A stretch of DNA of 64,000 nt. Origin: an uncultured Opitutia bacterium (GTDB lineage Bacteria; Verrucomicrobiota; Verrucomicrobiia; Opitutales; UBA953). Within the stretch, counting starts at the first letter, position 1. The number at the start of each line of letters is the position of its first letter. The position numbers and the translations under genes were made by a program. The notes under the pieces are model-generated. The model made no database searches. It was not told the DNA's origin and saw only the letters and a program-made list of their open reading frames with translations. Shown here one piece after another: positions 542 through 36,923 of the stretch. The stretch spans positions 1 through 64,000 of the forward strand of contig CAIWNE010000070.1 in NCBI GenBank assembly GCA_903913915.1. The letters are read 5' to 3'.

Positions 542-3500
542 ATGTCCGCACCCCGTCGACAGCGCCCTCGCGGAGCTTTGTCGCGCGCCTCCCTCATGGT
601 GGCCGCGGCCCTGCTCGGGGTAGGCGTGTCCCGGGCGCCCCAGGCCAAGGCCGCGAACTATTATTGGGACCAGAACGGAACGACTTCGGGCGTCGGTGGC
701 ACGGGGACCTGGGACACGACCAATGCCTATTGGTCTTCCTCCACGGCCGGCACCGACGCTTCCGTCGTCGCCAATTTCACCAACGCCGACACGGCGTTCT
801 TCGGCGGTACGGCGGGCACGATCACGCTTTCCGCTCCGCTGACCATCGGCGGCCTGGTCTTCACCGCTTCTGGCGACACCCTGACCGGCAGCACGCTGAC
901 GCTGGATACGTCCACGGGCTTCGCGCCGACGGTCAACGTCGATTCAGGCAACGGCGGCCTGACCGAGGTCGGCACCCGGGCGACGATCAGCTCCGTCCTC
1001 GCCGGTAACAAGGGTCTCGTGAAGACGGGCGATGGCACGCTCGTGCTGACCGCCGCCGACACCTACACCGGCGCCACCATCGTCCAGAACGGCACGCTCA
1101 TCGTCGCCGCGCAGTCCCAGTTGGGCGCGTCGACGGGCTTCATCAGCGTCTTCGGCGGCAACAACGCCGGCATGTTCGGCGGCGGCACCTTGGTGATCGG
1201 GTCTGGCAGCATGGTCTCGTCGCCGGCCATCTTCACACGCGACTTCAGCGTGTCCGGCCGAGGTGATGCGGCCATCGGCGCCGGTTCGCTGCAGTTCATC
1301 GGCAACAATACCCTCACGGGTCTCTTCTCCACCGGTTCCAATTCGGACAACCGATTCTACGGCGAAGGTGGCGTCACGATCTTGAGCGGCAAGGTCAGGT
1401 TCGGCGCCGGTCAGGAGACTTACTTCTACGGGAACACCATCATCTCGGGCGCGATTTCCGGGGGCAACACCGGCGCCTCCACGACGATCGCCAAGGCCAA
1501 CACCACCTTCTCGACCGAACTGCAGATCACCGGGACGAACACCATGCTCGGCGCCGTCCGCGTCGAAGGCGGATTCTTCCGCGTGACGGACGGTGCGCAG
1601 GTCGGTCTCAGCACGGAAACGACCAACGGCGCCAACTTCCAGTTCAACGGTGCGGCGCTGGAAATCCGTTCCGACACCCCGGCGTCGTTCGCCACCAAGA
1701 ATTTCGGCGCGATCTATAACAGCATGAACGTCTACGTCGATCATGCGATCGGCACGATGGGGGCGTCGTCCCTGAATCAGACGTTCGCGTTCAACAACAT
1801 CAACCAGGTCAACAGCCGTACCTATACTTTCACGGGACGAAACGGCACGAACGTCAGCTTCGCGTCCGTCAACGGCTCGGATTCGAGCAGTTCGAACGGC
1901 TGGACCAACAGCGGCAGCGGCTTGCTGACGATCAACGCGGCGGCCGGGGCGTTCTATGCTGATACGTACGGCACCGCCCAGACGCTCACGCTCACGGCCA
2001 CCGGCGAAATCGTCCTCAACGGATCCATCACGGCTTCTGGTGCGAACCATAACTTCACCAAAGCCGGCTCGGGCGTGCTCTCCATCAGCGGCACGAATTC
2101 GACCTTCACCGGTACGCTCAATATCAATGCGGGGACGTTGAGCGTCGGCGACCTCGGCGCCTTGAACAACACCTACGCGTCCAACGTGCTGGCCGACGCC
2201 TATTTTGCCGGTGGTACGCTGAACTATTCCGGCGCTTCCTCCCAGACGCTCAATCGCAGCGTCTGGATGAATGCCACGAGCAACATCATCACGGCGAACG
2301 GAACGGGCGCGCTCACGGTCGGCAACTCCGCCAACGGCGCCAACGCCGTCGTCAACGGGACTGCTGCCAGGAACTTGCTCCTGGGCGGCGCCAGCACGCT
2401 CGCCAACACCCTCGCCGGCATCGTCACCAATGGCCCCGTCGCCACCGGGCTCACCAAGTTCGATTCCGGCACCTGGACGATTACGACCCCGGGCACCACT
2501 GCGACTTCCATCGGTACGGCGAATGCTACGTTCGGGATAACGGCCGTCGGGACGGCGAGCCAGACGATCACAACGACGAGCACGAGCGGCTTGGTGGTCG
2601 GTCAGCCGATATCCGGGGGTGGAGTTCCCTTCGGTTCGGTCATCAGCCAGATAATCAGCGCTACTCAGTTCTCCATCAGCCAGAGTTCGGCTGTTAATGC
2701 GGCGACCTCCTTGAACATCGGGACGGTAAGCGGGTCTTTGTCATCGATCACGGTCACGTCCAACGCCGCCAATGTCCTTACCGTTGGCACCACGGCGAAC
2801 CTGGTGGTGGGTCAGCCGATCAGCGGTACCGGTCTCGCCGCCGCTCAGGGCTGGTATGTCAGCGCGATCAATTCGGCTACGACTTTCACTGTCGCCAATA
2901 CGACCGGCACGGCGGCCCTCGCGACAAACGCCGCGGCCGCGACGCAGACGTTGGGCCTCAGCCCAAGCTTCGCCGGCGCGCTCACGATCACGGGAGGCAC
3001 GGTCATCGTCAGCCCGACTTCCGGCACCGCGAATACGATCAACGACTCCGCCGGCCTGACGTTCGCCGCCGATACGATCCGTAACAACGGCTACGCCGGG
3101 GGCATTTTCAATTATAGCGTCTACAGCGGCGGCAGCAGCGAGACGATGGGCGTGTTGTCCGTCACCGCCGGAGCCGGTACGGTCCAGATCACGCCGACAG
3201 CGGGCACCAACACGCTGACGTTCGGCTCGCTCACGGCTCCTTCTGTCGGCACCGGACTCAACTTCGTCGTCCCCGCTTCGCCTGGGACAAATAGCGTCGT
3301 GCTGATGGCCGGCGGTACGGCCGGGCTTCTGAGCGCTCACGCCTATTATAACGGCGCAGACTTCGCTTATACGCCCGGCGGTGCCAGCGCGGTCTTGTCC
3401 GCCCCTGTCTACGGCACCACGAGCGGATTCACGGCGGTCAACACGCTGACGGGCTCGACGAATGTCGCCATCAATACGGCCGCCTCCACCGGTACGTTGT

Positions 3501-6500
3501 CCGTCACCTCCCTCAAGATTTCCGGCAATTCCGCCCTCACGCTCACAGGGCTGCTGACGGTCGGCGGGGCGACGGGTGGCGGCATCCTGGTCGACAGCGC
3601 CACGACGGGAGCCTCGATCACGGGTACCGGAGTGACCACCGCCTCGGCCGGCGACCTGGTCATCCGCGTCAACGGCCCGAGCGACATACTCACACTTTCC
3701 GCCCCGGTCACCGCAACTACAACCGGCGGCATCACCAAGAACGGCCTGGGCACGTTGATCCTGAACGCCGTCAACGCCGAGACGACGGGCGGCGTGGTCA
3801 CGGTCAACGAAGGCAAGTTGCAGCTTCTCGGCGCCACCACCACGCTGGGCGCTTCCGGCGTCGGTCTCACGCTTCGTCAAGGCACGACGTTCGACATGAA
3901 CGGCGTCAGCCTGAGCGCGGTCGGCGCGCTTAACAGCGCCGGCACGATCATGAATTCGTCCGGCACCCTCGCCACGCTCAATGTCGGTACGGGCAACGGC
4001 AGCGGCATCGTCTCCGGCCTCATCCAGGATGGCACCGGCGGCCTCGCCTTGACCAAGTCCGGCACAGGCACACTGACGCTCACGGGCCTGAACACCTTCA
4101 CGCAGCCGCTGACCATCGCCGGAGGTACGGTGGCGGTCACGACGCTCGCGAACATCGGTTTCCCGAGCGGCATCGGCGCAGGCGTCGGGACGAGCGACGC
4201 CACCAACGCGGCCAGCCTCGTCTTCAGCGGCACCGGAGGCACGCTCCTTTACACCGGAGCCAGCGCGAGCGTCTACCAGACGACGCAGACGCCGTCGGTC
4301 GCCATCAACCGACTCTTCACCGTCGCCGGCGGCGCCACCGCGACCATCGATTCTTCCGGTCAGTTCGGCAACAACACCGCGGCGACCAGCTCGGCGAACA
4401 GCGCCACGCTGATCTTCAGCAGCGCCTCGCCGCTCGTCTATACCGGTTCGGGCACGGCGACCGTCACCCTGCAGGGCAGTTCCATCGGCGACAACGAGTT
4501 CGACCCGCAGCTCGCCAATGCCAACTTCGCCCTGACCAAGACCGGCTCTGGCCTCTGGATCCTCGGTAACGCGAATAATACCTACGCCGGCGCCACGACC
4601 ATCTCCGGCGGTCAGCTGCGTGTCGCCCCCGGCAAGTTGTCGGCCAATTCCAACCTCGTCCTGGCGGGCGGCGTGCTCGAGACCTCTGGAACTTATTCCG
4701 CGGCGATCGGAACCGGCCCTGGCCAGGTGCAGTGGATCGGCTCCTCGGCCGGCGGCTTCGCCGCTTCGACGGCTCCTCTGAAGGTCAATCTCGGCGGGGG
4801 TACGGCAATCAAGTGGGGTTCGACGACCACCAATTTCAGTTCCACGGGCACCTTGACCCTTAGTTCCTCCACGGCGTTGGCCGACGTCGAGTTCCAGAAC
4901 GCCTTGGACCTCAACGGCGGAACACGTACGATCACTGTCAACGACAACACCCAGACCGCGACGGACTTCGCAACGGTCTCGGGTGTAATCAGTAATTCGA
5001 CCGGCACGGGCAACATCACGTTGAACGGCAATAGCGTCCTGTACCTTACCGGAGCGAACACTTATAACGGCACGACGACCATCACCGGTAGCGTGGCGGT
5101 CACGTCGATAGGCGCGAGCGGTGCGACTTCGTCGGCGTTCGGCACGAACGTGAGCGGCGGCCAGTTGCTGGTTGGTTCGGGCGGTTCGGGCGGCGCATTG
5201 GTGTATTATGGCTCCGGCGAGACGGTCACGCGTGTCATCGCGTTGAACGGAAGCACCGGTGGCGCCACGCTCGACTCAAGCGGTACCGGGCCACTTGTCA
5301 TCGGCTTGGGTGGCATCGTTAATACCGTTTCGACCGGCGCCGCAACGAATGCCAAAACCTTGACACTCCGAGGGCAGAATTCGGATGCGAACATCATCGG
5401 TTCAGTCCTTACTAATGATCCCGTCGGTTATTTGACCGTCAACAAGACCGATGGTGGCACTTGGATCCTGGCCGGAGCTAACACCTATACCGGCACGACG
5501 ACCGTCACCAACGGCTGGCTGGGCATCGGCGGGACCACCGGCGGTACGTCGGGCAATCCGCTGCCGGGCGCGCTGACCTTCGGCTCGGGTTACATCAACG
5601 AAGGGATCTTCGCCACGAATCCGGCGGGTCTGACGATCTCGTCCACGGTCTCCTTTAATAACAATCAGGCGAACAGTTTCGGCGGGGCCAATAGCATCAC
5701 GCTTTCGAGCGGCAGCTTCACCTCGCCCGGTGGCAACCCCACCATCCTGAACATTATCTCAGGCGGGACGCTCACCATCGGCTCGTCCGCTGCCACCTTT
5801 TCCTCGGACGGCACCAACGGCCGCACGCTCTATTTCAACGGATCGGGCAATACCGTGTTGAACGCGGCCATGGTAGCCGGTTCGGGTGCCGGTTATGTCG
5901 CGCTGACTGTCGCGACCAGCAGCGACGCCACGACAACATTGGCGGGCACGGGCACGCCGACCACCACTTCCACGACCTTGGCGCCGTTCACGCTTACTCA
6001 GGGCAACCTGGTCCTTGGAAGGACGCCTACGGGCGTCATCACGACCAATTACTATTTCGAAGAGCTTCTCACGCAGACGGTCAACCTCAACGGCGGCGTG
6101 CTTTCGGCGAGCAACGCCCTGACGGGAACCAATAGCATCCAGAACCCGATCAAGCTCGGCGGCACGGTCACGGTCGCCGGAACCAACCCGATCGAGTTCG
6201 GGTGGACGACTTCGGTGACCATGGCCGCCAGCCAGCTGCTGATCAACAACAACAGCGGCGGCCTGACGATCAGCGGTACCACGGCGGCGCTTACGAATTC
6301 GGCCGCGTCCACCCTGACCATCGCAGGCACGGGGAACACCGCTATCAGCGGTGTCGTGGCCCAAGGCACTGGCAACCAAGGCCTGACCAATTCCGGCAGC
6401 GGTACGGTGACGCTGACCGGCGTCAACACCTCCCAGGGCGCCCTGACCGCCAGCAACGGCGTCGTGGTGCTCAGCGGCGCGGGAACTTGGAATTCCGGCA

Positions 6501-12500: not shown

Positions 12501-15500
12501 GCGGCACCAGCACCACGCTCACGAACGGCGTCGGACTGGCCTCGACGGTGCTCAACGTCGGCAACGTCACCCAGCAGAACGGCGCGGTCTGGCTGATCAG
12601 CTCGAGCGCGATCGACGGCACGATGGGCAGCAGCCGCCGCGTCCTGATCGCCAACGGAGCCAGCCTGCTCGTCAACGGCATCATCCCGTGGATCAACATG
12701 GGCGGCGGCGACCTGACGAGCTACCTGATGCCGGTATCCGGGACGGCCGTCGGAGGCCTGGGCAAGCTCGGCGCGGTCGGCTTCCAGGGCTACGACGGCA
12801 CCGTGTTGCCGACCTCGAGCAACCCGACCGGCAACTACAAGATCGCCACCGCCGCGATCAGCCTGCCTGCGGGAGGGCTGACGCTCAATGCGATGGCGAT
12901 AAACAACGGCGGTTCCGCCCAGACCTTCTCCTTCGCCGCCGCGACCGACGTGCTGAACCTCACCGCTGGCCAGATCGTCAAGTCGGCCACGTCGGATACG
13001 ACGATCGGCGCCACGTTGGACAGCGGCCGTTTCACCGCCGGCGGGGTCACGCCGCAGTCGGGCACCGTCGACCTGACGCTGGTGAACACCGGGGGCACGA
13101 ACACCAACATCGTCCTGAACGCGCGCGTGGTGGACAACGGCTCGCAGCCCGTCCGGCTGGTCTTCACCGGTTACAATACCGGTCAGCTTAGGATCAACAA
13201 CGGACTCAACAGCTACACCGGAGGCACCATCGTCAACGCTCCCAACGGCGCCGTGACGAACGGCTATGTCGACCTCAACGTCACGGGCGCGGACGGCACG
13301 ACGGGCAACTCGGCCATCCCGCTCGCGGCGAACCTGCCCGACTCGCTCATCTTGAACGGCGGCGGCGTCCGCCTCTTGCAGTCGAACCAGATCAACTTCG
13401 CCATCACGCCGGTGCTCCGCGGCGGCGTGGCCACGTTGAACCTCAACAATTTCAACCAGACCCTCGCCGGGCTGAGCTTCGACAACGACGGCGGCGCCGG
13501 ACCGCAGGTGACGACGGGCACCGGCGTGCTCACCCTGGCCGGAGGCATCACGGCGATTTCCGGCAACGTCGGCGCCCTTTCGCTCATCTCCGGCGCCGGG
13601 GCCAGCGTTCCTGCCGCCGGCGGCACGATCGCCGTCGACCTCGCCGGCAACAACCTGACCTTCAACGTCGCCCCGGTCACGGTCAACGGCAACGCCACCC
13701 TCGCGAACGCGACGCCGACGCTGAGCATCTCCGCCCCGATCGGCAGCTCGGTGAATCCATCGACGACGGGCATCACCAAGACCGGCAACGGCCTCCTGCT
13801 GCTCAGCGGCGCCAACCTGTTCGGCGGCGGCGTCAGTGTCAATTCCGGCGGCCTGGCGGTAGGCGCCAGCACCAACGTCTCGACCCGCGGCGCGACGACC
13901 GGCCTGGCCGACGCTTTCGCGAACGGTCCGGTCGGTACGGGCACCTTGGCGATGGGGGCCGGCACGTTCCTCACCTCGACGGGGGCCAATACGCTCAACA
14001 ACGCGATGACGGTCGCCGGCGCGCTGACGATGCGCGGCACGAACAGCCTGACCATCAACGGCGCGACGACGCTCCTCGGCAACGCGACGATCAACGTCGA
14101 GGCCCCGCTGACCGTCTTCACCCTCAATGGCGTCGTCGACGACGCCGGCGCGGGTTACTCGATCACCAAGAGCGGCTTGGGCACCTTGCTGCTGGGCAAC
14201 AACAACACCTTCAGCGGCGGCGTCACCGTCAACGCCGGCACGCTCGCGCTCGCCGGCGTCAACGGCGGCAGCGCGGCTCCGGTCTTCGCCGGCACCACGG
14301 CCACGATCGGCAACGGCGGCATGATCAGCCTGCTCAACAGCGGTTCGGGCAACAACGGCCTGATCGTCTACGGGAACAACATCGTCGTCAGCGGTACGCT
14401 CGCCGCCGCCAACATCAACGTCGGCAACAACGGCGCCAACACGGGCAACACCATCCAGGTGCCTGATGTCTCGCTCCTCGGCGGCCAGATCCTGAACGTC
14501 AGTTCGGCCAACAGCTACATCCTGCGCATCCTCAACCTGTCCGGCGACGTCGCGGATGGCAGCGCACCGAAGATCAACGTCGCCCCCGGTTCGACCGCGG
14601 TGGTCTTCACGTATTCGGGCGACAAGCCTGTCAATGTCGGCCAGGGCCTGCTCGTCTTCCCCGACCTGATCTCGGTCGGCACGACCACCGTCCTGACCAC
14701 GGGCACCGGTTCGGCCAACACGAACGGCAACGGCCAGAAGGCCATCCTTCTCAGCGATGCCGTCGCCTATCCCGGCGGCTATTATCCGCTGGTGGTGCAA
14801 GGTTACGCCACCACCCCCGCGACGACGCCCGCCGGCTTCGTCAGCGGCGGCCTTCTCGGCGTGTACGCGAGTTTCGCCGCGACCCAGGCCGCGACCAACG
14901 CCACCATCGCCGGGATCGGCTACACGGCCGGAGGCAATCTGGTGACCAGCCTGAATGACGCCAGCGCTTCCAGCCGTTCCGCTTCCCTGGTGGGCGCCTT
15001 CGCCAACAGCACGGGCGTCTTCAACGGGTTGCTGAAGATCACCAACGCGGGCACCTACCGTTTCCGTTCCAGCGGCGACGACCAGACCGTGCTCTATGTC
15101 GACGGTTCGGCGGTCGTGAACAGCACCGCCTATAACACCGAATCCTCGATCGGGACGCTGACGTTGGCCGCCGGTTACCATAACATCTCCTTCCGCACGT
15201 ACAATGGCAGCGGTGGTTCGAGCTACCGCTTGTTCTACACCGGCGCCGACACCGCGGCCAACGGACTAGGTGGCGGGTGGCAGACGGTGGCGGCCAGCAA
15301 CCTTTATTATGCTTCCGGCGCGCCGAACGCCGCGAACAGCTACAACGGGGCGGCCGTCATCGCGAACGATTACACCTTGGCGGCCGGCGCCAGCGCCACG
15401 GTCGACACCTTCGGCACGCTGTTCGGCTCCGTGATCGACCAGACCAGCGTCCTGACCCTCGGCGCCAATTCCAACCTCTCGGTCCAGAACGGCACCATCG

Positions 15501-30500: not shown

Positions 30501-33500
30501 GCGGGATCAATACGACCTTTGACGTCGATAACAATGGTTCGGGCTCGAACGGCGTCATCCTCCTCAATGGCACGATGGCCAACTCCGGGGTAGGAACGCT
30601 GACCTATAACGTCACCGGCGCGAACGGCTACTCGTTGTCGATCGCCAACATCCGTAATTCGGCGGGAACCCCAGGTACGATCACTTTCAATCCGACGACC
30701 GCGGCGCTGATCCTTGGTAACCTGACAGGGAATCAGTCTACCAGCACGAACACATGGGCTCTTTCGGGTACCAATACGGGCAACGCCGTCACCGGGGTCA
30801 TCTCCAACTCCGCCGCCGGCACGATTTCCGCCGTCACGAAGAGCGGTACGGGTACCTGGGTGCTTTCGGGCGCCAATACCTATACCGGTGCCACCACGAT
30901 CTCCTCGGGCGTCCTGCAGGTCGGCGCCGGTTCCACTTCCGGTACGCTCGGTACCGCCGCCGTCACGAACAACGCCTCCTTGGTCTTCAACCGCAGCGAC
31001 GCGCTCACGGTCAGCAACGCGATTGGCGGCTCAGGTAGCGTGACGCAGGCCGGCGCTGGCAATCTTTCCCTCACGGGAGCCAATGCTTTCTCCGGCGCGA
31101 CGCTCGTCTCTGCCGGCACGCTCACCGCCGCCTCGGGCGCGTTGGCCGGTACTTCCGGCATCGCTGTCAACGGCGCAACCCTGTCCGCGGTCGACGTCAA
31201 CTCCGGCGCCACCCTCTCGCTCGACAACTCTTCGAAGGCCTCCTTCAGCGGCAACGTGACGCTCGGTGCGGTCAGCAACGCGAACGCGACGGACGCCAAC
31301 GCCCTCAACTTCACCGCCTCGACCGGCGCGGTCACGCTCGCTGCGCTCACCGGCGCCGGCAACACCACCTTCGGTTCGGATGCCACCATCACCGGCGGCA
31401 TCTCGGGCGGCACGGTCAATGTCACCGGCGCCCTGACCGCCGCCGTCTCGGGCGGCACGATCAATGCGGCTTCGCTCGCGGGCAACATCTCCGGCGCCGC
31501 CACGACGACGGTCGCCGGCCTGACCAACGGCGCGATCGCCGGCACGGGCACGCTCTCGTCCGGTTCCCTCACCTCTTCTTCCGTCAGCGGCGGAACCAAC
31601 ACGATCACGGGCGCCGCCACCGTGACGACCGTCTCCGGCGGCACGACCACCGTGGGCGGCGTGGCCACGGTGACGACGGTCACCAACGGCACGCTCAACC
31701 TGAACGGGGCCACGGCCGCGGTCACGCACCTCAACGGCGGTACGATCGCCCTGGGCAGCTCGACCGCGCTCTCCGTCTCGGATGGTACTTCCGCCGGCGC
31801 CATCGCGGGCGCGACTGGCAGCCTGACCAAGACCTCGAACGGCACGCTGACGCTCACGGGCGCCAATACCTACGGCGCCGGCACCACGATTTCCGTCGGC
31901 ACGCTCCAGCTCGGCAACGGTGGCACGACCGGCTCGATCGGCGCGGGCGACGTGACCGATAACGCGACCTTCGCCATCAGCCGCAGCGACGACCTGACCT
32001 TCGCCAGTAAGATCACGGGCACGGGCGGCTTCACGAAGCTCTCGGGCAACAACCTGACGCTCACCGGCGCGAACGATTACGCCGGAGCCACGCTTGTCTC
32101 GGCCGGCACGCTCACCGCCGCCTCGGGCGCGTTGGCCGGCACCTCTGGCATCACCGTCAACGGCGCGACCTTGTCCGCGGTCGACGTCAACTCGGGCGCG
32201 ACTCTGACGCTCGACAGCACTTCGAAGGCATCCTTCAGCGGCAACGTGACGCTCGGCGCGGTCACCAATGCGAACGCGACCGACGCCAACGCCCTTAACT
32301 TCACGGCCTCCACCGGTGCGGTCACGCTCGCTTCGCTCACCGGCGTCGGCAAGACGACCTTCGGTTCGGACGCCACCGTCACCGGCGGTATCTCGGGCGG
32401 CACGATCAACGTCACGGGCGCCCTGACCGCCGCCGTCTCGGGCGGCACGGTCAATGCGGCTTCGCTCACGGGTAACATCTCCGGCGCTTCCACCTCGGTC
32501 ACCTTGACGGGCCTGCTCACGGGCAATGTCGCCAACGGAACGGTCGGCGCCGACGCCCTGACGGGCAATGTCACCGGCGGCGCGGTCACCATCGCCCATC
32601 TCCTGACGGGCAACGTTTCCGGTGGCACGGTCTCGGCGGGTTCGATGACGGGCGACGTCGCCAGCTCGGTCACGGTCGCGGGTCTCCTGACCGGCGCGAT
32701 CACCGACGGCACGAACGCCCTGGGCTCGCTCTCCTCTTCCTCTGTCACTGGTGGCACCAACGCGATCTCGGGCGATGCGACCATCACGACCGTCGCCGGC
32801 GGCACGACCACGGTGAGCGGCATCGGCGCCGTCACGACCCTCTCCTCCGGCACGGTGAAGCTGATGGGCTTGACGGCCACGATCACACACCTCAGCGGTG
32901 GCGCCGTCGCCTTGGGCAACACCGCCCTGACCGTCTCCGACGGCACCTTCGGCGGCATCATCTCGGGTCCGACGGGCAGCCTGACCAAGACCTCGAACGG
33001 CACGCTGACGCTCAACGGCGCCAACACCTTCGGCGGCGCGATCAACCTAGCCGCGGGTACGCTGGCCTTCGGCGCCGCCAACGCCGCGGCCAATGCTTCC
33101 GGCCTCAACGTCACCGGCGACGCGACCTTCGTCCTGCCGGATTGGAGCGCGGGCTCGGCCCTCCCGATCGCCATCGCCTCGGGCAAGACCCTCACGGCCA
33201 ACGCCTCCACGGGCATCACGCTCGACGCGGCGCTGACCGGCGCTGGCACGCTGACGATCGTCGGTTCCGCGACCGCCGGCGACCGCTTCATCCTCGGTGC
33301 GGCCACGGGCTTCACTGGTGCGATCAACCTGCAGCAGGGTATTCTCGAGGCCGATCCGTTCGTCGGTAATACCGGCACGGCGCGCAACGTCTCGGCGATC
33401 AACGTCACCGGTGACGCCACGATCGTCGGCACGACCTACCACGGCATCGCGGTGCCGGTCTCCGTCGCCGCCGGCAAGACCGCCACGCTCCGTGGCATCC

Positions 33501-36235
33501 AGAATCTCACCCAGACGCTCAGCGGCTCGGGCGACCTCCTCGTCCAGGACAGCACCTTGACCTTGGGCGGCACCAACACCTTCTCCGGCAATATCCGCCT
33601 CGCGGGAGGCAGCCTCGCCATCAGCGCCACGGGCAACGTCGCCAGCGTCGCCGGCCTCTCCGTCGAGAACGACGCCGGCCTGGCGCTCTCCACGAGCGAC
33701 GCCACCGTCGCCGCCCCGATCGCCCTCGCGGCCTCGAAGACCCTGACGCTCACCGGCAACCATGTCCTGACCCTGTCGGGCGTGCTCTCCGGCGCCGGCG
33801 CCGTGACGGTCAACGCCAACGCCGGCGTGGTCTTCGGCTCGACCAACACCTACCACGGCGACACCGCGCTTGTAGCCGGCACGGCTTTCCTCGGCGCGGA
33901 CAACGCCCTGGGCGACGGTACGCTGAACATCAGCTACGGCACGCTCAGCAGCGACGGCACGACCGCCCGCAGCCTGGCCAACAACGTCGTCGCTTCCGCC
34001 GACCTCATCCTCGGCGACCAGACCAAGAACGGCGCGCTCACCTTCACCGGTACGGTCGACCTCGGCGGCGACCGCGCCATCAGCGTCAACGCTCCGGTCA
34101 CTCTCTCCGGCGTCGTCAGCAACGGCTCCCTCACCAAGAGCGGCGACGCGACCCTCACGCTCACGGGCGCCAACACCTACGCGGGCCTTACCACGGTCAA
34201 CGCCGGCGTCCTGGCTATCGGCAACGCGGCCGCGCTCGGCACGGACGCCGCGGGCACGGTCGTCGCCGATGGCGCCGAACTCCGCGTCCAGGGCGACATC
34301 ACCGTCGCCTCCGAGGCCATCACCGTGTCCGGTACGGGCGTCTCGGGCAGCGGCGCGATCCGTAACTTCTCCGGCGACAACACCCTCGGCGGCGCGATCA
34401 CGCTCGCTGCCGACACGAGCATCGTCTCGACCGCCGGCAAGCTGACCCTCTCCGGCGGCGTCACCGGCGCGACCAAGAACCTGACCGTCGACGGCGCCGG
34501 CAACGTCACCCTCTCGGGCGTCCTGAACCTCGGCACCGGCGTGCTGGTGAAGAACGGCGCCGGCCTCCTGCTCCTTTCCTCGGCCAACACGCTCGGCGGC
34601 ACCACCGTCGGCGCCGGCACGCTCAAGATCGGCGACGTCGGCTCGCTGGGCTCGGGCGCGGTCACCGTCGCCAACGGCGCCACGCTCGACCTCAACAATT
34701 TCGCGGTCGGCAACGCCATCAGCCTCGGCGCCACGGCGACCCTGAAGAACGGCCAGATCTCCACCGCTTCCGCCCCGACGACGGGTACGCTGGCCGTGGC
34801 GCTCACCGGCACCGCCGACCTTGTGAAGACGGACGCCGGTCGTCTCGAACTCACCGGCGCCAGCACCTTCACCGGCGCGACCTCCGTCGGCGCCGGCACG
34901 GTCGCCGTCTCCGACTTCGGCAACGGCACGAGCGCCAGCCCGCTGGGCATCACGCCGCTGGCCGACCCGAGCAAGCTCGTCCTCTCCGCGGGTGCGACGC
35001 TCGAGTTCAACGGCGCGACCAACACCAGCACGGCGCGCAGCTTCACGATCGGCGGTTCCGCCGGCATCGCGGCCTCCGGCACGGGCACGCTCGAGTTCAC
35101 TTCCGACGCCAAGATCGCGACCACCGGCACGAACCCGGCGCTCACGCTCACGGCGAACAACACCGGCACCAACCGCTTCGCGCCGAGCCTGGCGGCCGAC
35201 AGCGCCCCGCTGGCCACGCTCGCCATCGACGGCGCCGGCACCTGGGTGATCGGCACCGGCGCCAACCGCTTCAAGGGCGACGTCCGCGTCGACGCGGGCT
35301 CCGGCTCCACGATCGGCCTCGAATCCGGCGCCCTGCCGGCCGGCGCCACCATCGCCATCGCGGACGGCGCCAAGGTGCGCTGGGAAGCCGGCAACACCAG
35401 CGACCTTTCGTCCAACCTCAGCATCGCGGCGGGCGCGACCGCCAAGCTCGACCTCGGCAGCAACAACGTCGTGTTCTCGTCGGCTCCGGCCGTCGGCACC
35501 GGCGGCGCGACGATCGAGAAGACCGGCACAGGCGCGCTCAAGATCGACGCCACCGTCAGCGCCCCGACCCTGAACGTCGCCGTGAGCTCCGGCCTCGTGT
35601 CCGTCAACGGCACCGTGGGCAACGTCAGCGTCAGTTCCGGCGCGACCCTCGGCGGCTCCGGCACCGTCGGCGACGTGACCACCGTCCGCGGGTCGCACGT
35701 CTCGCCGGGCAATTCGCCGGGCACGCTGACCACGGGCAACTTCGGCCTCGTCGGCGGTTCCTACTACGACTGGCAGGTCCAGGACGCCAAGGAGCTCACC
35801 GTCCAGCCCGGCTATGACAAGCTGGCGATCTCGGGCAACTTCGACCTGCGTCAGGCCGCGCCGGACAACAAGATCACGATCAGCGTCATCTCGCTCTCCG
35901 ACCCCCACACCGTGGGCAATCCGCTGAACTTCGACAAGCCGGGTACGATCGGTCTGCGTCCGATGACCTTTACCTTCGCGACCGTCGGGGGCTCGGTGCT
36001 CTTGAATCCGGGCGTGAACATCAACGATGTCTTCGCCTTCGACCTCACGCAGTTCACCTATTCCGACGGTAGCGCTTCCGACGCCGGTCTGTGGTCGGTC
36101 AACTGGGATGGCGGCAGCCTCGTGACCATCACCGCCGTCCCCGAGCCTTCCACCTACGGCTTCGGCCTCGGCGCCCTGGCCCTCGCCGCGGCGGCGATTC
36201 GTAGGCGCAAGCGCAAGCCTCAGGCGAACGCCTGA
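542..36235 (+). CDS. Giant (11,897 aa) autotransporter-associated beta-strand (PATR) repeat protein with PEP-CTERM sorting signal
   Basis: Single open frame. N-terminal basic/hydrophobic signal (SRASLMVAAALLGVGVSRAPQAKA). Many TKxGxGTLxLTGxNTYTGxTxVxxGTL repeats. C-terminus VPEPSTYGFGLGALALAAAAIRRRKRKPQANA is a classic PEP-CTERM (motif, TM helix, Arg/Lys tail). Confidence 0.95.
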   Translation: MSAPRRQRPRGALSRASLMVAAALLGVGVSRAPQAKAANYYWDQNGTTSGVGGTGTWDTTNAYWSSSTAGTDASVVANFTNADTAFFGGTAGTITLSAPLTIGGLVFTASGDTLTGSTLTLDTSTGFAPTVNVDSGNGGLTEVGTRATISSVLAGNKGLVKTGDGTLVLTAADTYTGATIVQNGTLIVAAQSQLGASTGFISVFGGNNAGMFGGGTLVIGSGSMVSSPAIFTRDFSVSGRGDAAIGAGSLQFIGNNTLTGLFSTGSNSDNRFYGEGGVTILSGKVRFGAGQETYFYGNTIISGAISGGNTGASTTIAKANTTFSTELQITGTNTMLGAVRVEGGFFRVTDGAQVGLSTETTNGANFQFNGAALEIRSDTPASFATKNFGAIYNSMNVYVDHAIGTMGASSLNQTFAFNNINQVNSRTYTFTGRNGTNVSFASVNGSDSSSSNGWTNSGSGLLTINAAAGAFYADTYGTAQTLTLTATGEIVLNGSITASGANHNFTKAGSGVLSISGTNSTFTGTLNINAGTLSVGDLGALNNTYASNVLADAYFAGGTLNYSGASSQTLNRSVWMNATSNIITANGTGALTVGNSANGANAVVNGTAARNLLLGGASTLANTLAGIVTNGPVATGLTKFDSGTWTITTPGTTATSIGTANATFGITAVGTASQTITTTSTSGLVVGQPISGGGVPFGSVISQIISATQFSISQSSAVNAATSLNIGTVSGSLSSITVTSNAANVLTVGTTANLVVGQPISGTGLAAAQGWYVSAINSATTFTVANTTGTAALATNAAAATQTLGLSPSFAGALTITGGTVIVSPTSGTANTINDSAGLTFAADTIRNNGYAGGIFNYSVYSGGSSETMGVLSVTAGAGTVQITPTAGTNTLTFGSLTAPSVGTGLNFVVPASPGTNSVVLMAGGTAGLLSAHAYYNGADFAYTPGGASAVLSAPVYGTTSGFTAVNTLTGSTNVAINTAASTGTLSVTSLKISGNSALTLTGLLTVGGATGGGILVDSATTGASITGTGVTTASAGDLVIRVNGPSDILTLSAPVTATTTGGITKNGLGTLILNAVNAETTGGVVTVNEGKLQLLGATTTLGASGVGLTLRQGTTFDMNGVSLSAVGALNSAGTIMNSSGTLATLNVGTGNGSGIVSGLIQDGTGGLALTKSGTGTLTLTGLNTFTQPLTIAGGTVAVTTLANIGFPSGIGAGVGTSDATNAASLVFSGTGGTLLYTGASASVYQTTQTPSVAINRLFTVAGGATATIDSSGQFGNNTAATSSANSATLIFSSASPLVYTGSGTATVTLQGSSIGDNEFDPQLANANFALTKTGSGLWILGNANNTYAGATTISGGQLRVAPGKLSANSNLVLAGGVLETSGTYSAAIGTGPGQVQWIGSSAGGFAASTAPLKVNLGGGTAIKWGSTTTNFSSTGTLTLSSSTALADVEFQNALDLNGGTRTITVNDNTQTATDFATVSGVISNSTGTGNITLNGNSVLYLTGANTYNGTTTITGSVAVTSIGASGATSSAFGTNVSGGQLLVGSGGSGGALVYYGSGETVTRVIALNGSTGGATLDSSGTGPLVIGLGGIVNTVSTGAATNAKTLTLRGQNSDANIIGSVLTNDPVGYLTVNKTDGGTWILAGANTYTGTTTVTNGWLGIGGTTGGTSGNPLPGALTFGSGYINEGIFATNPAGLTISSTVSFNNNQANSFGGANSITLSSGSFTSPGGNPTILNIISGGTLTIGSSAATFSSDGTNGRTLYFNGSGNTVLNAAMVAGSGAGYVALTVATSSDATTTLAGTGTPTTTSTTLAPFTLTQGNLVLGRTPTGVITTNYYFEELLTQTVNLNGGVLSASNALTGTNSIQNPIKLGGTVTVAGTNPIEFGWTTSVTMAASQLLINNNSGGLTISGTTAALTNSAASTLTIAGTGNTAISGVVAQGTGNQGLTNSGSGTVTLTGVNTSQGALTASNGVVVLSGAGTWNSGTIATNPGGILRLDNTAGSVSRATGAYTTAGGTLDFIGNSAGTSQSVGALTINTGLTAITMNTPTSGTNILTFASVSFANSGSSLDLTGVPSLNTSNKVVFTSAPTLTNNVAPRILLGTDFATYSSGVLAFAGYNSGAINSAAATDTMSLAANATIDSNRTLNALKINGSGLTIGGTGQSQLTLSAASLINLGGNNTLSVPLLAFGSNAGYFQAANGTTLAVTGIITGSGGLSKASAGTLDLQKANYQTSTTNVLGGTLKLSGGTNTLYAQQALNVNLGATLDLNGNAQLIAALGSAGALASTGGTITSSAGTGTLVSVSGAASTFAGAISGAVNFVRAGNYTTTFESAQTYTGATLLLGSQTNLQDNATLLNTSSIDLNTGLLYVDNNSSLAVYNPNRIGDTIPITMRGGYLQYNPRFNATSNETFGALLLPLGSNRITVNQVPGNYAYNTSTLTFASLTRTSGATMNFSGSNLGLPQAGASRILFTAAPALVGNQLLGAWAIANSTDYASYNTQTGVGAAGSGGYTPYLWQDINAANVAPGAGIFVAGSITDINAQANASLLLPSGATTTDMLRVSGGYSNDILFTNATDTLNLALGGFLRDNNNTSTSIGSTTTRGILTAGGAETSGTRELIFYGNQNTITVNAVIADNGSGNSVRLVKSGANTLTLTGFNTYTGGTIVNQGTLNLSATTAPSGSNYVIPGDLTLSMGILDTQVAVTMNTNAGQINPAANIIINGSGALTLVGANTLNSLTFSNLGGNVAPTITSGGVLTLTSSTPITATSSNPAKVVTVAGTLTLPSGSSTISVAPVVLQGTTTGIAPLVATLNISAIVQNGASASSISKTGDGILQLSGASTFTGGVTVGGAAGGLLLSGSSSSSSSFAAGTGLNGTFISGPVGLGTLTMGSGTTLYGDGTTRTLANAVVFSGQPLFDAYTTTASSVVINGTSTFNGGNALTVNVTNPYLTATFQGPVTNIAALTSVTKTGAGNFGFDFTGYGAAAPITISGGGTFTLLNDGAGNGLPETLTMGVITDDAALPTIVIGASGQTALWNQPANKTIAPASLVAHLENGLSLTNNNQYGLLVADNIVLSTTQGSTGPVYTVSTATASNLTPGLNLAGVISGGATGSAAVVLTKAGAGALVLSNTGNTFGGSGSIIDITGGILQAGSDAVLGNSANVVRLSANSATQGFRAAGTFATARTILLNSASNALDVTPGNTLTLNAAFATNATSTTNYNLQKNDDGTLTFGASVNNTAFKGNLTVAAGAVLVAGNGNLGSVTTGSATTNATVNVTVASTAGLFPGMSVTGAGIPDNTSIASITDATHFALSAAATTSATPTLTYTNFINVGSYVSTTAYGGAALQLSGGVTVANSLVLQYGGNNLAQGGINTSGHLESISGANTVSGAVYLNYDASIGADAGASLTLSGTVSTLSGNRQIYFVGDGNINLATNIIGGSYLLSKRGAGTLTVSVAQTSNLNSGGTTPIIGGTLLFNAAGAFSSSNTNGIQAQNAAIVRLDNSSTSVANRLGTKGLTLATGTFDFIANTAAGTSESVGTLTATWGADAVNFTNAGAANSTLTFAGLASNVVSGGGFLSFNSAQTFNAGTAKVVFTTAPTLTNGLVQRAVVADASGLNFAAYGTSLTAFAAYTASDGSGTGTDLTYTNGNGGKAYGLNASNVAGTYSATTTYNVTGTTALLSNPGLSGRTINALRIAGSGTNVQFGASGGIQLTLSAGNILATGSSEAIGNATLASAGMAPVIATAAVEAGLAVGTGASLDFNAVLSNAANVTKALGGSLSLNTKQYFNTGANVFSVLGGTVTLNGGENTLWQGAQGGTNGQLLAIGPGATLDLNGNSQMAGDLVSPNRNAYANGGGTLTSATAATFVSSLLNGTASSWGGQITGALALNLAGTNGTTFYYDNTYSGPTIITTGGTLTLRDNARLSGTSSILVSGGGLSIDNNQANALADRLPDGATITLKSAKTFNFTGRDNTNVSETIGNLVFAEGGTSTTLTNGVGLASTVLNVGNVTQQNGAVWLISSSAIDGTMGSSRRVLIANGASLLVNGIIPWINMGGGDLTSYLMPVSGTAVGGLGKLGAVGFQGYDGTVLPTSSNPTGNYKIATAAISLPAGGLTLNAMAINNGGSAQTFSFAAATDVLNLTAGQIVKSATSDTTIGATLDSGRFTAGGVTPQSGTVDLTLVNTGGTNTNIVLNARVVDNGSQPVRLVFTGYNTGQLRINNGLNSYTGGTIVNAPNGAVTNGYVDLNVTGADGTTGNSAIPLAANLPDSLILNGGGVRLLQSNQINFAITPVLRGGVATLNLNNFNQTLAGLSFDNDGGAGPQVTTGTGVLTLAGGITAISGNVGALSLISGAGASVPAAGGTIAVDLAGNNLTFNVAPVTVNGNATLANATPTLSISAPIGSSVNPSTTGITKTGNGLLLLSGANLFGGGVSVNSGGLAVGASTNVSTRGATTGLADAFANGPVGTGTLAMGAGTFLTSTGANTLNNAMTVAGALTMRGTNSLTINGATTLLGNATINVEAPLTVFTLNGVVDDAGAGYSITKSGLGTLLLGNNNTFSGGVTVNAGTLALAGVNGGSAAPVFAGTTATIGNGGMISLLNSGSGNNGLIVYGNNIVVSGTLAAANINVGNNGANTGNTIQVPDVSLLGGQILNVSSANSYILRILNLSGDVADGSAPKINVAPGSTAVVFTYSGDKPVNVGQGLLVFPDLISVGTTTVLTTGTGSANTNGNGQKAILLSDAVAYPGGYYPLVVQGYATTPATTPAGFVSGGLLGVYASFAATQAATNATIAGIGYTAGGNLVTSLNDASASSRSASLVGAFANSTGVFNGLLKITNAGTYRFRSSGDDQTVLYVDGSAVVNSTAYNTESSIGTLTLAAGYHNISFRTYNGSGGSSYRLFYTGADTAANGLGGGWQTVAASNLYYASGAPNAANSYNGAAVIANDYTLAAGASATVDTFGTLFGSVIDQTSVLTLGANSNLSVQNGTIGSFGAGWFGAAGSAVIGNGAIVNAGGTASSAAGTFNLLGAVTQSGAGIATGVGVSNAFIKTGTGTLGLGGNNTATFTGDLVVQGGTVILNSANSLPAGSAGRTVVTAPTYSTTTITLGGTDTVGTLGIQPGAMLSGTNVAAGTYVVSLTDATHIVVSTAPTGALATNLTFKLGTLIRTASNNSGATAPTATLGGSTVTLGGSDTAFSLGLQPGVQVFGTGIAAGTYVTAVTGANTFTISQPTTATLAGTYNFSASGMLDLNGQTGVAGNVVISGAGPTFPAATPAAILATTAGGALWNSSPNAASLTGILTVPANATVGGNGDLTLNAIYAPSTTTVTKVGANTLVLNGTNTTTFLGNIAVSAGVLRLTNLAGLGDTTGTTTISSGAVLDLNGLAVGAEPVTISGTGFGGSGAISGLGTVSSLGALINRSGTAASLSGTLTLAANAGIGSSDINATSGITSAGNLTLSGQITGAFVLTKVGANTLNITGMTSASANTGIIVAEGRVVFSGGSTVQNGAGALTVNAGAVTGALTPINTLQFDYAGLGATSVNRDNAHTINLSGGALLLTANTGAVTAQNENLGAVNIALGSGFSLITLDANATSTLELSNTGTATVTRSANTGTVLVRGANLGVNAPLAVGSTNIVPGTAPTVIGAAYSAGNKTNGIIPWMIVDNTGIAGSGVSFATDTGTTGIRALNTSTEMDTTFTAGNNILLNTTTALTAGAVFSSGYATTTVNSLTFSTAANPSLTILSGRNVEVGSGGILATTSATIGSVGGGFVNAASSGTAREMIVTTAGAGTVLTINAAVGGTVSPSTAGLTKSGEGTLVLGAASDAYTGSTVVNLGTLQLAPAAPTANVLFYKATVPAAQGSYASTLKADALVLNAGATFDLNGSSQAFGGFSSAGVLPGGGGIVTNSSTTASTLSVDLGAAADFAGQINGTATNVVNFVKAGAYALTLHDNNAYYGTTTVQGNLLTLTDQGRLSNTSGITIANSVLRWDDTGVQAMSNRIASTVPITLDGGAFEYVSRSGVNATLSLGPINVAAGNGVFRITQGGSTSTSTTTGVGSATVTFAAMPTRSTGATFSFVTGSYSAIGDNPYVVFTTPPALTNGIIAPWSTVVGFDFLNSTPAVNVEFATYDPASGVHAVTNAQQTVLTAANTFASLASATSNVRMGTAVTETVAVGGQTINTLTMNMAAETLSFAAAGDTLTLAAGGLLGGTDNNARTIGSAALPGKLTAGATVSELFVTNGGNLLTLYPKIVDNGVLGGLNLVVSGLSQPANTPAVVLANANSYLGTTYVNGVGLMLANTTGSGNAVPGNLIITGGNSAGLLANADSLAISYAVVQNLANQQIADTATVTVRGGSAYTTNGFNETIGNLVFNAQGGANGGNGPYVSTGSGLLTIASGGTISATSLTDFRDIPTVLGNLAFSSSLGVSVDQVANTTVNGGNGQVGLALNSRLMSAGSIIKSGAGVLSVGGVSYLADTFGFADGNSGTIVLGSNANYPLSTVNLGYAGNILDMRGQSNLQLGALTGVAGSLVKNFNVSAGGTLVVGSANSAFTYDGGFASDYTTGLLNITKVGTGAWTLTADNSASILGTLQVNFGSVVLAGSSAKVGFLTEILAKGGAITLDNSVNAVSNRLGGTTSFQSSAADRTFKNQGGTLNYIGGGSAVSEALNTVTDVEGMSTWALTAGSASTTITLATLSASSTANRGGLYLNAGTGILGGSAGSGHVNVIATSTGVVGNIRPDVIGIDSSGSGLVVSDSNGFRLLTSGDAALGYFAPGASNYLSTTTPAIITATGGTTANAASGSNAFLAASTFLYGANTINSLTLSSGGGLVSNGGGLSSALFSASGLNTLSLTAGALVAQSGNSGLTGGAVTSGSALLYVHALGDLAINSYVLGSAGLVKDGPGTLTLGKANYNTAQLFINEGTVKLAGGNNTWLVIPTSTIPTVVDLVVNAGSLDLNGNSQAFARITHTTSSSFAAGAGSVVNTSATPATLFILNPATSFAGTLGGVGGNNFSFDKSTVNTLTLYSPATYTGTTVVRGSQLTLRDSAAITGGGAVSALQGATLALDNSGLAISSARLGTSAINLTGSTLQFLGSAGSDSQTVGAVTLGAGASAVNVTLYASTSTSSSPALLTLASLAQATSQSVVNFTYAGGTMGFARSGVAGSLGTAQSSNPQVLITAAPTLTNGIIGPWAVVNGFDWAAYLATADAASGAQGVGALGSSVTTGAGTTSYPFGTYSSNSLTTPPASTDNITTASSTLGTWGTVTMNTLAIRSTSATTSMALTGKSLDALATLVSGGLLTSNNNLTTAIRGVRLTAGTAANATLYDYANGTASQSMQAQVTDNALGQVNFVKSGAATVGLGVSPILNLASTTANSPTVTVTGNTPGILAGMTVANAVVGVPANTVITGIASSTTFNVAVGTALAGSTTAADSAFGFPSVQVIPGLTLTNGSNTVTVPAGTSIMPGAAVTLVNGTTGVTTAGGVTVASVSGTTLTLSGNFAGTTFTSGTVIFGTAATAPVSTPAAALSGSTSLQVLSGTGIAAGMYVSGAGIAPGTTVSSVAGNVVTLSAAAAANATSNVAFTAIPMGLTQTAVPITAAGTSVTVSATNAPGIVPGMSVTGFGIPVGTIVSSVSGTAVTLSQAITSVGAGSTSTLTFGAQLLNSTTTASTITSAASSASATVTIGSTQGLYAGMKVSGAGVPANSYITSIASGTTFTLNATATISSGASLTLTSPTVIGTFANAYTGATVVNQGLLNIGGTSGGNTVGQIIVPGDLVLNNASATQQSGYNGTIAATSNVTINGGGVLTLTGLNTVNSLTFNSTGGSATPSVTGGTLVLNAASAISATNDNYAFTPTVSAILELNGSSKTITTSGLSPVDLSITGVIQNTMSGTAASLTKAGAGSLVLTGASTFNGGVTLSAGSIILGGSSSVTAPTTTAGYTFVTGTGPLGTGTLTMADGTTILSDTTARTLLNPLVLSGNITIGQAATGLTLAGTVNLGASTRTITVTSPQVTGTMSGPITGSAGLTKAGDGILKLSSAGNAYAGTTTVSAGELQLGAANALPLAGAVTVSANGAFDIAANSAVIGALSGSGLITNSSSAATLTAGDATNTSFAGVFTAGTVANLNLTKNGSGTLTLTGINTANGTLTVNQGGVTLSGANGIISFATDTINAGGTLTVDNSTYLTNRLQGKNLTLQGGTFVLGGNASSAVNETIGTLLVQNGGGVITLSGGAGGAELLTITTLTAQAVNSGGSLLLRGASLGSAAGANVANATVTTFTGVTGVTQGTGVNLSATMPIRPDIIADASATGSGTGFLTKDSSTGFLRPLATAELATSLTSSSTTNFGNFSAVQNYPAATSVNSLTLSTVNGIAVSGAGQAGQRYAPGSGLAALTVNTGGILATSSATLSVGSLVTNANTQYDMHVVGGSATLTINGFLTGTTGGLVKADAGQLALNNTAYYTGATTVNGGTLKLNSGAANTLAVGITNTASTAQALVVNGGTLDLNGYDQSVTTITSADVVSGQAGTITSTVAANLITNTGAGSTFAGNVGGTLNLYKTGASTLVLTGTNAYAGTTNILGTGLTLQDGGTLASTTINIGGGALNFVNNGLANNNARISASALVNLSSGTVTLTGSNQVSSAVTIGSAGNGVSLLQGSNTFTVTPPAATTNNVASLAVANLTRSTGAVATFAATGLGSTVTGNGQVFVTNVNGTATANTNGILGGWAVAGATVAGADNWATLAGAQTLSLTTTVNSNTVTLASGSIGSLVLGQSVTGGNLPAGAFVTGFTDATHFTVSAYPTAAGTANSTAAAAGIGAFNAFGYATLDDTTATIGSSANANVVATTTTLAALGAGASVAVNSLRIAPTATQTITLGNDTVTIGTGGLLKTSAAFATTLAGGTVTTAAGGGELFVINNSANSLTVSSVIADNGGAVSLVKSGAGALILSSANNTYTGGTYVNAGTVTMAGTGSAVVLPGNLTVNSGGTVNTTTTANLGMASTANVTVNGAGTFTLAGITTAGTYTLNALSFANNGGTTNPSVVVPGVTAGILSLAGATPISVNSYNAATVATISGTGALAFTAASPVVNVTSNDATGAFVAKVTPDLNINPTAGIASSVTAQIVKTGNGVLALSSASANTGGWKLQDGTLILNNATALGTIAGAFTIGDSTTANTVPLTILAGSAAIVVGANPVVVNRDFTFGGTVGTNNLTLGGTVNLGAATRTITVAAPAVTASLTGAISSTATGTAFVKDGPGALVVSAASGLAGAGVTVANGVLRLGATDAIPNTSVITVNAGAVLDLAGFTLNAPQLAGAGLVTNSSTTAAAIVLGGASASDVSTNSSSTFGMSVVDISANKIGLTKAGVGTVTLNVSGNTNYGATTVVSGTLAGGADNAFPANSTVTVGNATTGALTATFDTGAFNQTIGGLQAGNTNASGLASVRIGAGKTLTVGGLVQVGVTSATTATTKMTVTGAGTLSVGTASSPTNANIVIGYGQTTNVSSAGVLDLSGLSTFYANLGTGTLLLGDNSNAGGTATAASSIIFAQSSKVVAAAISTDTPSGDNNGLLVQTFKLGSGTNEFDATNIYVGSQANRANGAIVFNGGTGTFKIRDMTGTDTGRANLYVSYGSATTGFTIDGKVTLTGHSSDLLLNNLGVGGGSGLSAAIRSGTFSFDTGTLDATTVNIANRSGTTATSGTVTGMMNLNVGGGAGAVTFVTAVVGSNSATTATTSGQASGTLNIGGGTVGITTLTLGNDSIGGGTTAQTSGPVSATLSVSGGTTTIGTLNMNVNSSANTGTGNASVANLNVSGGALNVTSLSLANTSVAAATATSTLSITGGTLTLGSDLLYTKTSGTVNSTVTLNGGTLDMGGFAIGSSSVTVGSGTGALNFQSGTLKNVGLINNTAGLTKTTAGTLTIAGTAAYTGATTVSAGTLVLSSTSSSTSGVSINGGTNTTVVITNANATGSGSLVSSTGATTPIFKLHIDGGGTITLPNAVGGNSGINTTFDVDNNGSGSNGVILLNGTMANSGVGTLTYNVTGANGYSLSIANIRNSAGTPGTITFNPTTAALILGNLTGNQSTSTNTWALSGTNTGNAVTGVISNSAAGTISAVTKSGTGTWVLSGANTYTGATTISSGVLQVGAGSTSGTLGTAAVTNNASLVFNRSDALTVSNAIGGSGSVTQAGAGNLSLTGANAFSGATLVSAGTLTAASGALAGTSGIAVNGATLSAVDVNSGATLSLDNSSKASFSGNVTLGAVSNANATDANALNFTASTGAVTLAALTGAGNTTFGSDATITGGISGGTVNVTGALTAAVSGGTINAASLAGNISGAATTTVAGLTNGAIAGTGTLSSGSLTSSSVSGGTNTITGAATVTTVSGGTTTVGGVATVTTVTNGTLNLNGATAAVTHLNGGTIALGSSTALSVSDGTSAGAIAGATGSLTKTSNGTLTLTGANTYGAGTTISVGTLQLGNGGTTGSIGAGDVTDNATFAISRSDDLTFASKITGTGGFTKLSGNNLTLTGANDYAGATLVSAGTLTAASGALAGTSGITVNGATLSAVDVNSGATLTLDSTSKASFSGNVTLGAVTNANATDANALNFTASTGAVTLASLTGVGKTTFGSDATVTGGISGGTINVTGALTAAVSGGTVNAASLTGNISGASTSVTLTGLLTGNVANGTVGADALTGNVTGGAVTIAHLLTGNVSGGTVSAGSMTGDVASSVTVAGLLTGAITDGTNALGSLSSSSVTGGTNAISGDATITTVAGGTTTVSGIGAVTTLSSGTVKLMGLTATITHLSGGAVALGNTALTVSDGTFGGIISGPTGSLTKTSNGTLTLNGANTFGGAINLAAGTLAFGAANAAANASGLNVTGDATFVLPDWSAGSALPIAIASGKTLTANASTGITLDAALTGAGTLTIVGSATAGDRFILGAATGFTGAINLQQGILEADPFVGNTGTARNVSAINVTGDATIVGTTYHGIAVPVSVAAGKTATLRGIQNLTQTLSGSGDLLVQDSTLTLGGTNTFSGNIRLAGGSLAISATGNVASVAGLSVENDAGLALSTSDATVAAPIALAASKTLTLTGNHVLTLSGVLSGAGAVTVNANAGVVFGSTNTYHGDTALVAGTAFLGADNALGDGTLNISYGTLSSDGTTARSLANNVVASADLILGDQTKNGALTFTGTVDLGGDRAISVNAPVTLSGVVSNGSLTKSGDATLTLTGANTYAGLTTVNAGVLAIGNAAALGTDAAGTVVADGAELRVQGDITVASEAITVSGTGVSGSGAIRNFSGDNTLGGAITLAADTSIVSTAGKLTLSGGVTGATKNLTVDGAGNVTLSGVLNLGTGVLVKNGAGLLLLSSANTLGGTTVGAGTLKIGDVGSLGSGAVTVANGATLDLNNFAVGNAISLGATATLKNGQISTASAPTTGTLAVALTGTADLVKTDAGRLELTGASTFTGATSVGAGTVAVSDFGNGTSASPLGITPLADPSKLVLSAGATLEFNGATNTSTARSFTIGGSAGIAASGTGTLEFTSDAKIATTGTNPALTLTANNTGTNRFAPSLAADSAPLATLAIDGAGTWVIGTGANRFKGDVRVDAGSGSTIGLESGALPAGATIAIADGAKVRWEAGNTSDLSSNLSIAAGATAKLDLGSNNVVFSSAPAVGTGGATIEKTGTGALKIDATVSAPTLNVAVSSGLVSVNGTVGNVSVSSGATLGGSGTVGDVTTVRGSHVSPGNSPGTLTTGNFGLVGGSYYDWQVQDAKELTVQPGYDKLAISGNFDLRQAAPDNKITISVISLSDPHTVGNPLNFDKPGTIGLRPMTFTFATVGGSVLLNPGVNINDVFAFDLTQFTYSDGSASDAGLWSVNWDGGSLVTITAVPEPSTYGFGLGALALAAAAIRRRKRKPQANA
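14846..15310 (+). other. PA14-like domain inside the giant protein
   Basis: In-frame GLLGVYASF...FNGLLKITNAGTYRFRSSGDDQTVLYVDGSAVVN...GTLTLAAGYHNISFRTYNGSGGSSYRLFYTG matches the PA14 family pattern; non-PATR. Confidence 0.75.
31101..33030 (+). repeat. Tandem in-frame duplication inside the giant gene (about 990 bp offset)
   Basis: 31101 'cgctcgtctctgccggcacgctcaccgccgcctcgggcgcgttggccgg' recurs at 32091. Protein VSAGTLTAASGALAGTSGI.VNGATLSAVDVNSGATL.LD..SKASFSGNVTLGAV.NANATDANALNFTASTGAVTLA.LTG is near identical in both copies. Confidence 0.9.
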
Positions 36236-36488: not shown

Positions 36489-36923
36489 ATGCCTCTGCCT
36501 GTACGCGGTCAGCTTCGTCACGCCATCCCATCCTGGGTGGATGAAAAGGATAAGTGGTTCGTGACGATCTGCTGTCAGCCACGAGGACGAAATCAGCTGG
36601 CATCACCCGTGCCGGCAGCGGTTTATCGTGGGGCGCTGGCGTTTTATGAAGCGAGCGGGATGGCCAGATCTGTAATCAGCGTGCTGATGCCCGACCATCT
36701 CCATGTCATCGCCCAATTCGACCACCGTGCCGGCATGCCGAGGATTATCTCAGCCTTGAAGCAGCATCTGGCTAGGCATGCCGGTGTTAGCTGGCAGAAG
36801 GGCTTCTTCGATCATCGGCTGAGCGGGGAGCATGAAGTGGCCGAGAAATGCCGATACGTCCGAAATAATCCGGTCCGCGCCGGTTTGTGCGCGAAGGTGG
36901 AGGACTGGCCTTATACTTATTGA
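36489..36923 (+). CDS. REP-associated tyrosine transposase (RAYT, Y1/IS200-like transposase fold)
   Basis: 144 aa with MPDHLHVI (HUH-type), catalytic-region KQHLARHAG and YVRNNPVRAGL signature; flanked by REP hairpins. Confidence 0.88.
   Translation: MPLPVRGQLRHAIPSWVDEKDKWFVTICCQPRGRNQLASPVPAAVYRGALAFYEASGMARSVISVLMPDHLHVIAQFDHRAGMPRIISALKQHLARHAGVSWQKGFFDHRLSGEHEVAEKCRYVRNNPVRAGLCAKVEDWPYTY

Follow-up and report, generated by a model that had tools for sequence, protein, structure and literature searches.

The window, a 64,000-nucleotide stretch of DNA at the start of contig C70 of an uncultured freshwater Opitutia bacterium, encodes a giant protein in which a passenger-like body with PATR repeats ends in a PEP-CTERM tail. 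A second giant of this type lies elsewhere in the same genome, which has a single exosortase gene, and relatives occur across the genus, where the bodies diverge fast at kept loci. We favor the reading that these proteins are exported, processed by the exosortase and displayed as long fibers. The source genome is a 2.53-Mb draft in 148 contigs, with a completeness of 94%. The features of the window are listed in Table 1.

Table 1. Positions of the giant gene, its parts and other features, counted from the first letter of the window
Feature	Position	Strand	Remarks
Giant ORF	542..36235	+	11,897 aa, ATG start, about 1,149 kDa, pI 4.75, no Cys
Signal peptide, residues 1-37	542..652	+	genus motif [SP]RA[ST]LMVAAxL ... 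AxA followed by AN; read by inspection
Passenger-like body, scattered PATR / TIGR02601 repeats	1013..34912	+	profile matches
C-terminal 700 aa	34133..36232	+	modelled beta-solenoid, then beta-rich cap, then terminal helix; pLDDT 82, pTM 0.70
C-terminal cap, PGNSPGTL ... LWSxxxN ... ITLTA	35705..36136	+	kept in congeners; start estimated by residue counting; precedes PEP motif
PEP-CTERM motif, VPEPSTYG - hydrophobic helix - RRRKRK	36134..36208	+	PF07589 34 bits, E 1.2e-7
REP-associated tyrosine transposase	36489..36923	+	NF047646 85.8 bits
Copies of GGTAGGGCNGACCATCCNTGGTCGGCC	249-275, 36288-36314, 36385-36411, 36924-36979, 36997-37023, 38263-38289, 38492-38518, 39667-39693, 42334-42389
HAF-repeat autotransporter with PF03797 barrel	49362-51296	-	profile matches
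HAF-repeat autotransporter with PF03797 barrel	57900-59870	-	profile matches

A giant gene with an unbroken frame

The first-pass annotation described a 35.7-kb frame without interruption, and named a frameshift or an assembly collapse as what could overturn it. The translation contains no internal stop. In 3-kb blocks, the codon-position GC is stable throughout, with GC3 values of 0.82-0.94, as in the neighboring genes, and the coding signal is therefore continuous. The longest exact internal repeat measures between 40 and 49 nt, and none reaches 50 nt, which makes a repeat collapse unlikely. Neither codon-position GC nor exact repeats thus bear the signature of either defect, and the ORF, as judged from its sequence, is real rather than an artefact. 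The first base of the window is also the first base of the contig, which leaves 541 bp upstream of the giant, and these match the DNA preceding the orthologous starts in two congeners. The absence of cysteine, reported earlier from a visual skim, is confirmed by the count (zero, versus about 110 predicted from the rate in the other genes of the window). The protein was also placed among the larger bacterial ones; it is large, but it holds no record, as at least 17,232 aa are found in a congener and 39,678 aa in Omnitrophota (PMC10066038).

Signals at both ends of a passenger-like body

In the N-terminal signal, a basic n-region and a hydrophobic core precede the AxA site after residue 37, as read by inspection. 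The motif is kept in congeners and is alignable in eight giants. Within the source genome its profile matched the two giants only, and of the 15 genomes searched, those from other genera gave no match.

The body carries about 41 PATR matches of at least 8 bits, a count obtained with a home-made model at that threshold, with a median spacing of 189 aa; a shuffled control gave none. The PATR / TIGR02601 matches spread from residue 158 to residue 11,427 and account for only about 11% of the residues, while the remainder is comparable G/T/S/A/N-rich sequence in which no named domain is recognized. An analysis of periodicity in the primary sequence revealed no dominant repeat length. A PA14-like stretch (residues 4823-4894, window 15008-15223) scores 23.7 bits, just below Pfam's 24, and was not counted as evidence. 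The part enclosing it, from about residue 4500 to 5250, matches nothing in the other giants with which it was compared.

The model of the C-terminal 700 residues, built from 17 sequences, consists of strands almost throughout and one terminal helix. The best PDB matches found by Foldseek are mostly autotransporter passengers (Ssp, Ag43, pertactin and Hbp), with low TM-scores, mostly 0.1-0.3, and the sole match in the PDB sequence search is the IcsA passenger, which is weak (E 0.0035). A phage collection searched with the same 700 residues gave no match. Together, the PATR matches and the modelled C-terminal solenoid bear out the beta-helical, passenger-like body proposed in the first-pass annotation. 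The prediction of segments, also proposed there, succeeded for the C-terminus, but the interior segment 2265-2973, modelled from six sequences, is beta-rich and uncertain (pLDDT 67), with no significant fold match. Firm structural support accordingly extends no further than the C-terminal 700 aa. We did not take up an S-layer reading, because the best fold match of the interior segment, RsaA, is not significant (E 0.023) and the interior model is of low confidence.

The PEP-CTERM tail, assigned by PF07589, is also recognized by TIGR02595, at 16.2 bits, just above the cut-off. Its helix corresponds to model residues 679-693, and many positions of the tail are invariant across 17 aligned rows. 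A profile search found no PF03797 barrel in the giant, and the previously described PEP-CTERM end without a C-terminal barrel holds. Nor did the Pfam scan of residues 1-4000, which gave only PATR, detect a haemagglutination-activity (TPS) domain.

The REP-associated tyrosine transposase that adjoins the giant is a neighbor rather than a part of the fiber, and it adjoins the giant in the congener G016 as well. The 27-bp palindrome GGTAGGGCNGACCATCCNTGGTCGGCC occurs in eleven copies in the window, several of them around this transposase, and in none of the shuffles; the copies are a predicted REP/REPIN-like family.

One exosortase and two giants in the same genome

A search of the genome for exosortase/EpsH, as suggested earlier, found one gene, on contig C109, away from both giants. 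Its product passes the TIGR04178 cut-off, and all of the NCBIfam subtype models (XrtA, D, N, W, X and others) remain below theirs. The catalytic Cys, Arg and His are intact, with C217, R267 and H304 invariant in ten aligned sequences of the genus. The neighboring genes, named by eye, are peptide-ABC-transporter ATPase-like genes and a glycogen-synthase-like gene, and no EPS locus or polysaccharide genes were seen beside the exosortase.

The giant is no singleton: contig C33 carries a second one (11,981 aa, zero Cys, with a PEP-CTERM end), and relatives occur genus-wide. The two giants, which share only 30-44% identity, in patches, together make up 2.8% of the assembly. They are the only PEP-CTERM proteins detected in this genome, as PF07589 and TIGR02595 agree, and further ones may be missed since the draft is 94% complete.

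The same genome encodes five PF03797 barrel proteins, including the two HAF-repeat autotransporters of the window, and both export routes therefore coexist. The first-pass idea of exosortase rather than type V export is right in that the giant lacks a barrel and the genome has an exosortase, but there has been no simple replacement of one by the other. The term “anchoring” also needs to be narrowed: the tail is PEP-CTERM, but this tag denotes a transient hold in the inner membrane with processing and sorting, and no proven final anchor. We identified no dedicated outer-membrane exporter for the giants in the genome. One T4P-like secretin, one secretin closest to GspD and one polysaccharide export (Poly_export) protein are possible candidates for the outer-membrane exit.

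Giants across the genus

The related exosortase loci belong to MAGs and assemblies of Opitutae, of which many carry lake names. Exactly one exosortase is present in 33 of the 36 congeners. PEP-CTERM matches were found in 31 of the 36, with one to seven in each, and frames of more than 3,000 aa are common. The PEP-CTERM frames include those of 11,590, 9,593, 8,605, 7,787, 7,619 and 7,568 aa, some ended by contig edges, and the giants of the congeners have the N-terminal signal motif and the C-terminal cap in common. Shorter PEP-CTERM proteins, about 1,000 aa long, also occur, and those read have PATR-like bodies. Five congeners have an exosortase and no PEP-CTERM match, including G019 (99% complete, with one PATR match); in these five, the substrates may have been lost or may be unrecognised. 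The longest PATR frame measures at least 17,232 aa; it lies in a congener of 8 contigs and starts with the same kind of signal, while its C-terminus is lost at a contig end. No giant is among the barrel-bearing frames of the genus, the longest of which has 2,914 aa. In G034, the 7,787-aa giant forms a tandem pair with another ORF of the giant type, which carries the same signal motif and follows immediately downstream (G034:C15:11000-13562, minus strand).

Outside the genus, G204, a single-contig genome from another family of the order, encodes a PATR giant of 8,498 aa with one Cys and no PEP-CTERM (G204:C1:978092-1003585, minus strand). Its N-terminus resembles a TPS domain by eye, and other lineages therefore appear to export such giants in another way.

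Diverging bodies at fixed loci

Syntenic orthologues were found for the C70 locus in G016 (Opitutae bacterium BS6), and for the C33 locus in G015 and G027. In BS6, the genes after the PEP-CTERM end of the C70-type giant are those found on C70, in unchanged order. While the thirteen neighboring genes have a median identity of 93.4%, the giants are only 48.9% identical over 2,030 columns, with 1,097 gap columns. The N-terminal part of the BS6 giant, recognized by its signal and upstream DNA, is located at the end of another contig, and shows hardly any similarity to the C70 giant past the first 115 residues. Both pieces run to contig ends (17.8 and 15.3 kb), and we infer that they belong to one gene of at least 33 kb. 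The PATR coding in this assembly (G016 C9 and C1) runs on across frame changes, which are probably indel errors of that assembly. At the C33 locus, the neighbors are 68-98% identical to those of G015 and G027, in contrast to about 49% and 41% for the giants, and the syntenic giants in independent assemblies measure 11,590 and 8,605 aa. The two HAF-repeat barrel autotransporters of the window have no match in the syntenic stretch of G016, and this region therefore looks variable.

The fast divergence of the bodies at kept loci points to exported surface fibers under strong diversifying pressure. Such a turnover would be compatible with selective pressure from phages, from grazers or from shifting attachment partners.

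Proposed mechanism and alternatives

We propose that Sec carries the giant beta-solenoid out of the cytoplasm, and that the C-terminal PEP-CTERM helix then holds it in the inner membrane. The single exosortase would cleave it, possibly transferring the product to an acceptor in the envelope or outside the cell. The giant would then pass the outer membrane and be displayed as a long fiber on the cell surface or in the extracellular matrix, most likely as an adhesin, a shield or a matrix strut. If the whole chain forms one solenoid with 18-25 residues per turn, then the fiber would be about 230-320 nm long. We hold this sequence-based model to be rather probable. Several observations count against it: the exosortase adjoins neither the giants nor polysaccharide genes, five of the 36 congeners combine an exosortase with no PEP-CTERM match, structural support is firm only at the C-terminus, with low TM-scores, and a dedicated outer-membrane exporter was looked for and not found.

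That the ORF arose in assembly or annotation, through repeats that were fused or collapsed, or that it is a pseudogene without a product, is highly improbable. The genome is a draft MAG and the window begins at a contig edge; moreover, the giants of congeners often end at contig edges, and the coding signal in BS6 switches frame. However, the C70 giant has stable codon-position GC and lacks exact repeats of at least 50 nt, independent assemblies contain the syntenic giants at the C33 locus, the BS6 ends extend over 17.8 and 15.3 kb to their contig edges with frame changes that look like indel errors, and a frame of 17,232 aa is open in a congener of only 8 contigs. Type V secretion after all, either with a barrel supplied in trans or as a two-partner, FhaB-like substrate, would account for the PATR body and the autotransporter-like PGNSPGTL cap, in a genome that does encode barrel proteins, and the TPS-looking N-terminus of the G204 giant lends it some appeal. 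We nevertheless regard it as distinctly unlikely, given the missing PF03797 barrel, the Pfam scan of the N-terminal 4,000 aa, in which no TPS domain appeared, the limit of 2,914 aa on barrel frames in the genus, and a PEP-CTERM tail that keeps many positions unchanged across 17 aligned rows.

A processed giant could also remain within the periplasm or the inner membrane and serve there in a structural or storage role. This would agree with the lack of an identified outer-membrane exporter, and has parallels in Nostoc, where some PEP-CTERM proteins are abundant in the periplasm (PMC12188702), and in Akkermansia, where they are more abundant in intracellular fractions (PMC4960237). However, fast divergence at kept loci is typical of exposed proteins, a rod of 230-320 nm would far exceed the width of the periplasm, and the GspD-like secretin and the polysaccharide export protein offer possible exits, which together make a periplasmic fate fairly unlikely. 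Returning to the fiber model, we suggest a tentative extension to the whole genus, which is possible though doubtful. An untyped exosortase may have become specialized for giant, nearly Cys-free solenoid fibers with matched N- and C-terminal signals, handling chains of 12,000-17,000 aa, beyond the reach of the co-resident barrel autotransporters, and the fibers may make up a variable outer coat, rewritten fast while their loci stay fixed.

Relation to known systems and significance

PATR repeats with PEP-CTERM tails probably also occur outside this group. The giants share with the PEP-CTERM/exosortase substrates described by Haft et al. (2006, PMC1569441) the signal peptide, the PEP motif, the transmembrane helix, the basic tail, a genomic exosortase and a Ser/Thr/Asn-rich body of low homology. 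In contrast to that survey, with a median of eight substrates per genome, only two were detected here, both of about 12,000 aa, and the exosortase fits no typed NCBIfam subfamily and lies away from polysaccharide genes. Type Va passengers such as pertactin, Ag43 and Hbp likewise have PATR, a predicted beta-solenoid, an autotransporter-like cap before the C-terminal module and hardly any Cys, but the giant has PEP-CTERM in place of the beta-barrel and is several times longer than the longest barrel frame of the genus. The giant ORFs of Omnitrophota / Velamenicoccia (PMC10066038), from a PVC-related phylum, are also very long and poorly conserved, with a suggested role in adhesion or as a coat. 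Unlike the 39,678-aa Velamenicoccus protein with its 42 predicted TM helices, the C70 giant has a signal peptide, PATR and one recognized C-terminal helix. The filamentous-haemagglutinin-like giant of G204 resembles it in size, PATR and near absence of Cys, and differs in its TPS-like N-terminus and in lacking the PEP-CTERM tail.

The individual parts are of known kinds, and what sets these giants apart is their combination, the size, the near-exclusive use of an exosortase for giants, the paired signals and the hypervariability at fixed loci. The literature searched contained no description of PATR/PEP-CTERM giants in Opitutae, although this argues only weakly that none exists. The passage of exosortase substrates across the outer membrane is an open question in the field, and a system with two detected megadalton-fiber substrates provides a sharp test case, because a fiber of this mass should be visible by electron microscopy. 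With signals and loci kept and the body rewritten fast, these giants are good candidates for a main surface through which freshwater Verrucomicrobiota interact with phages, grazers or particles.
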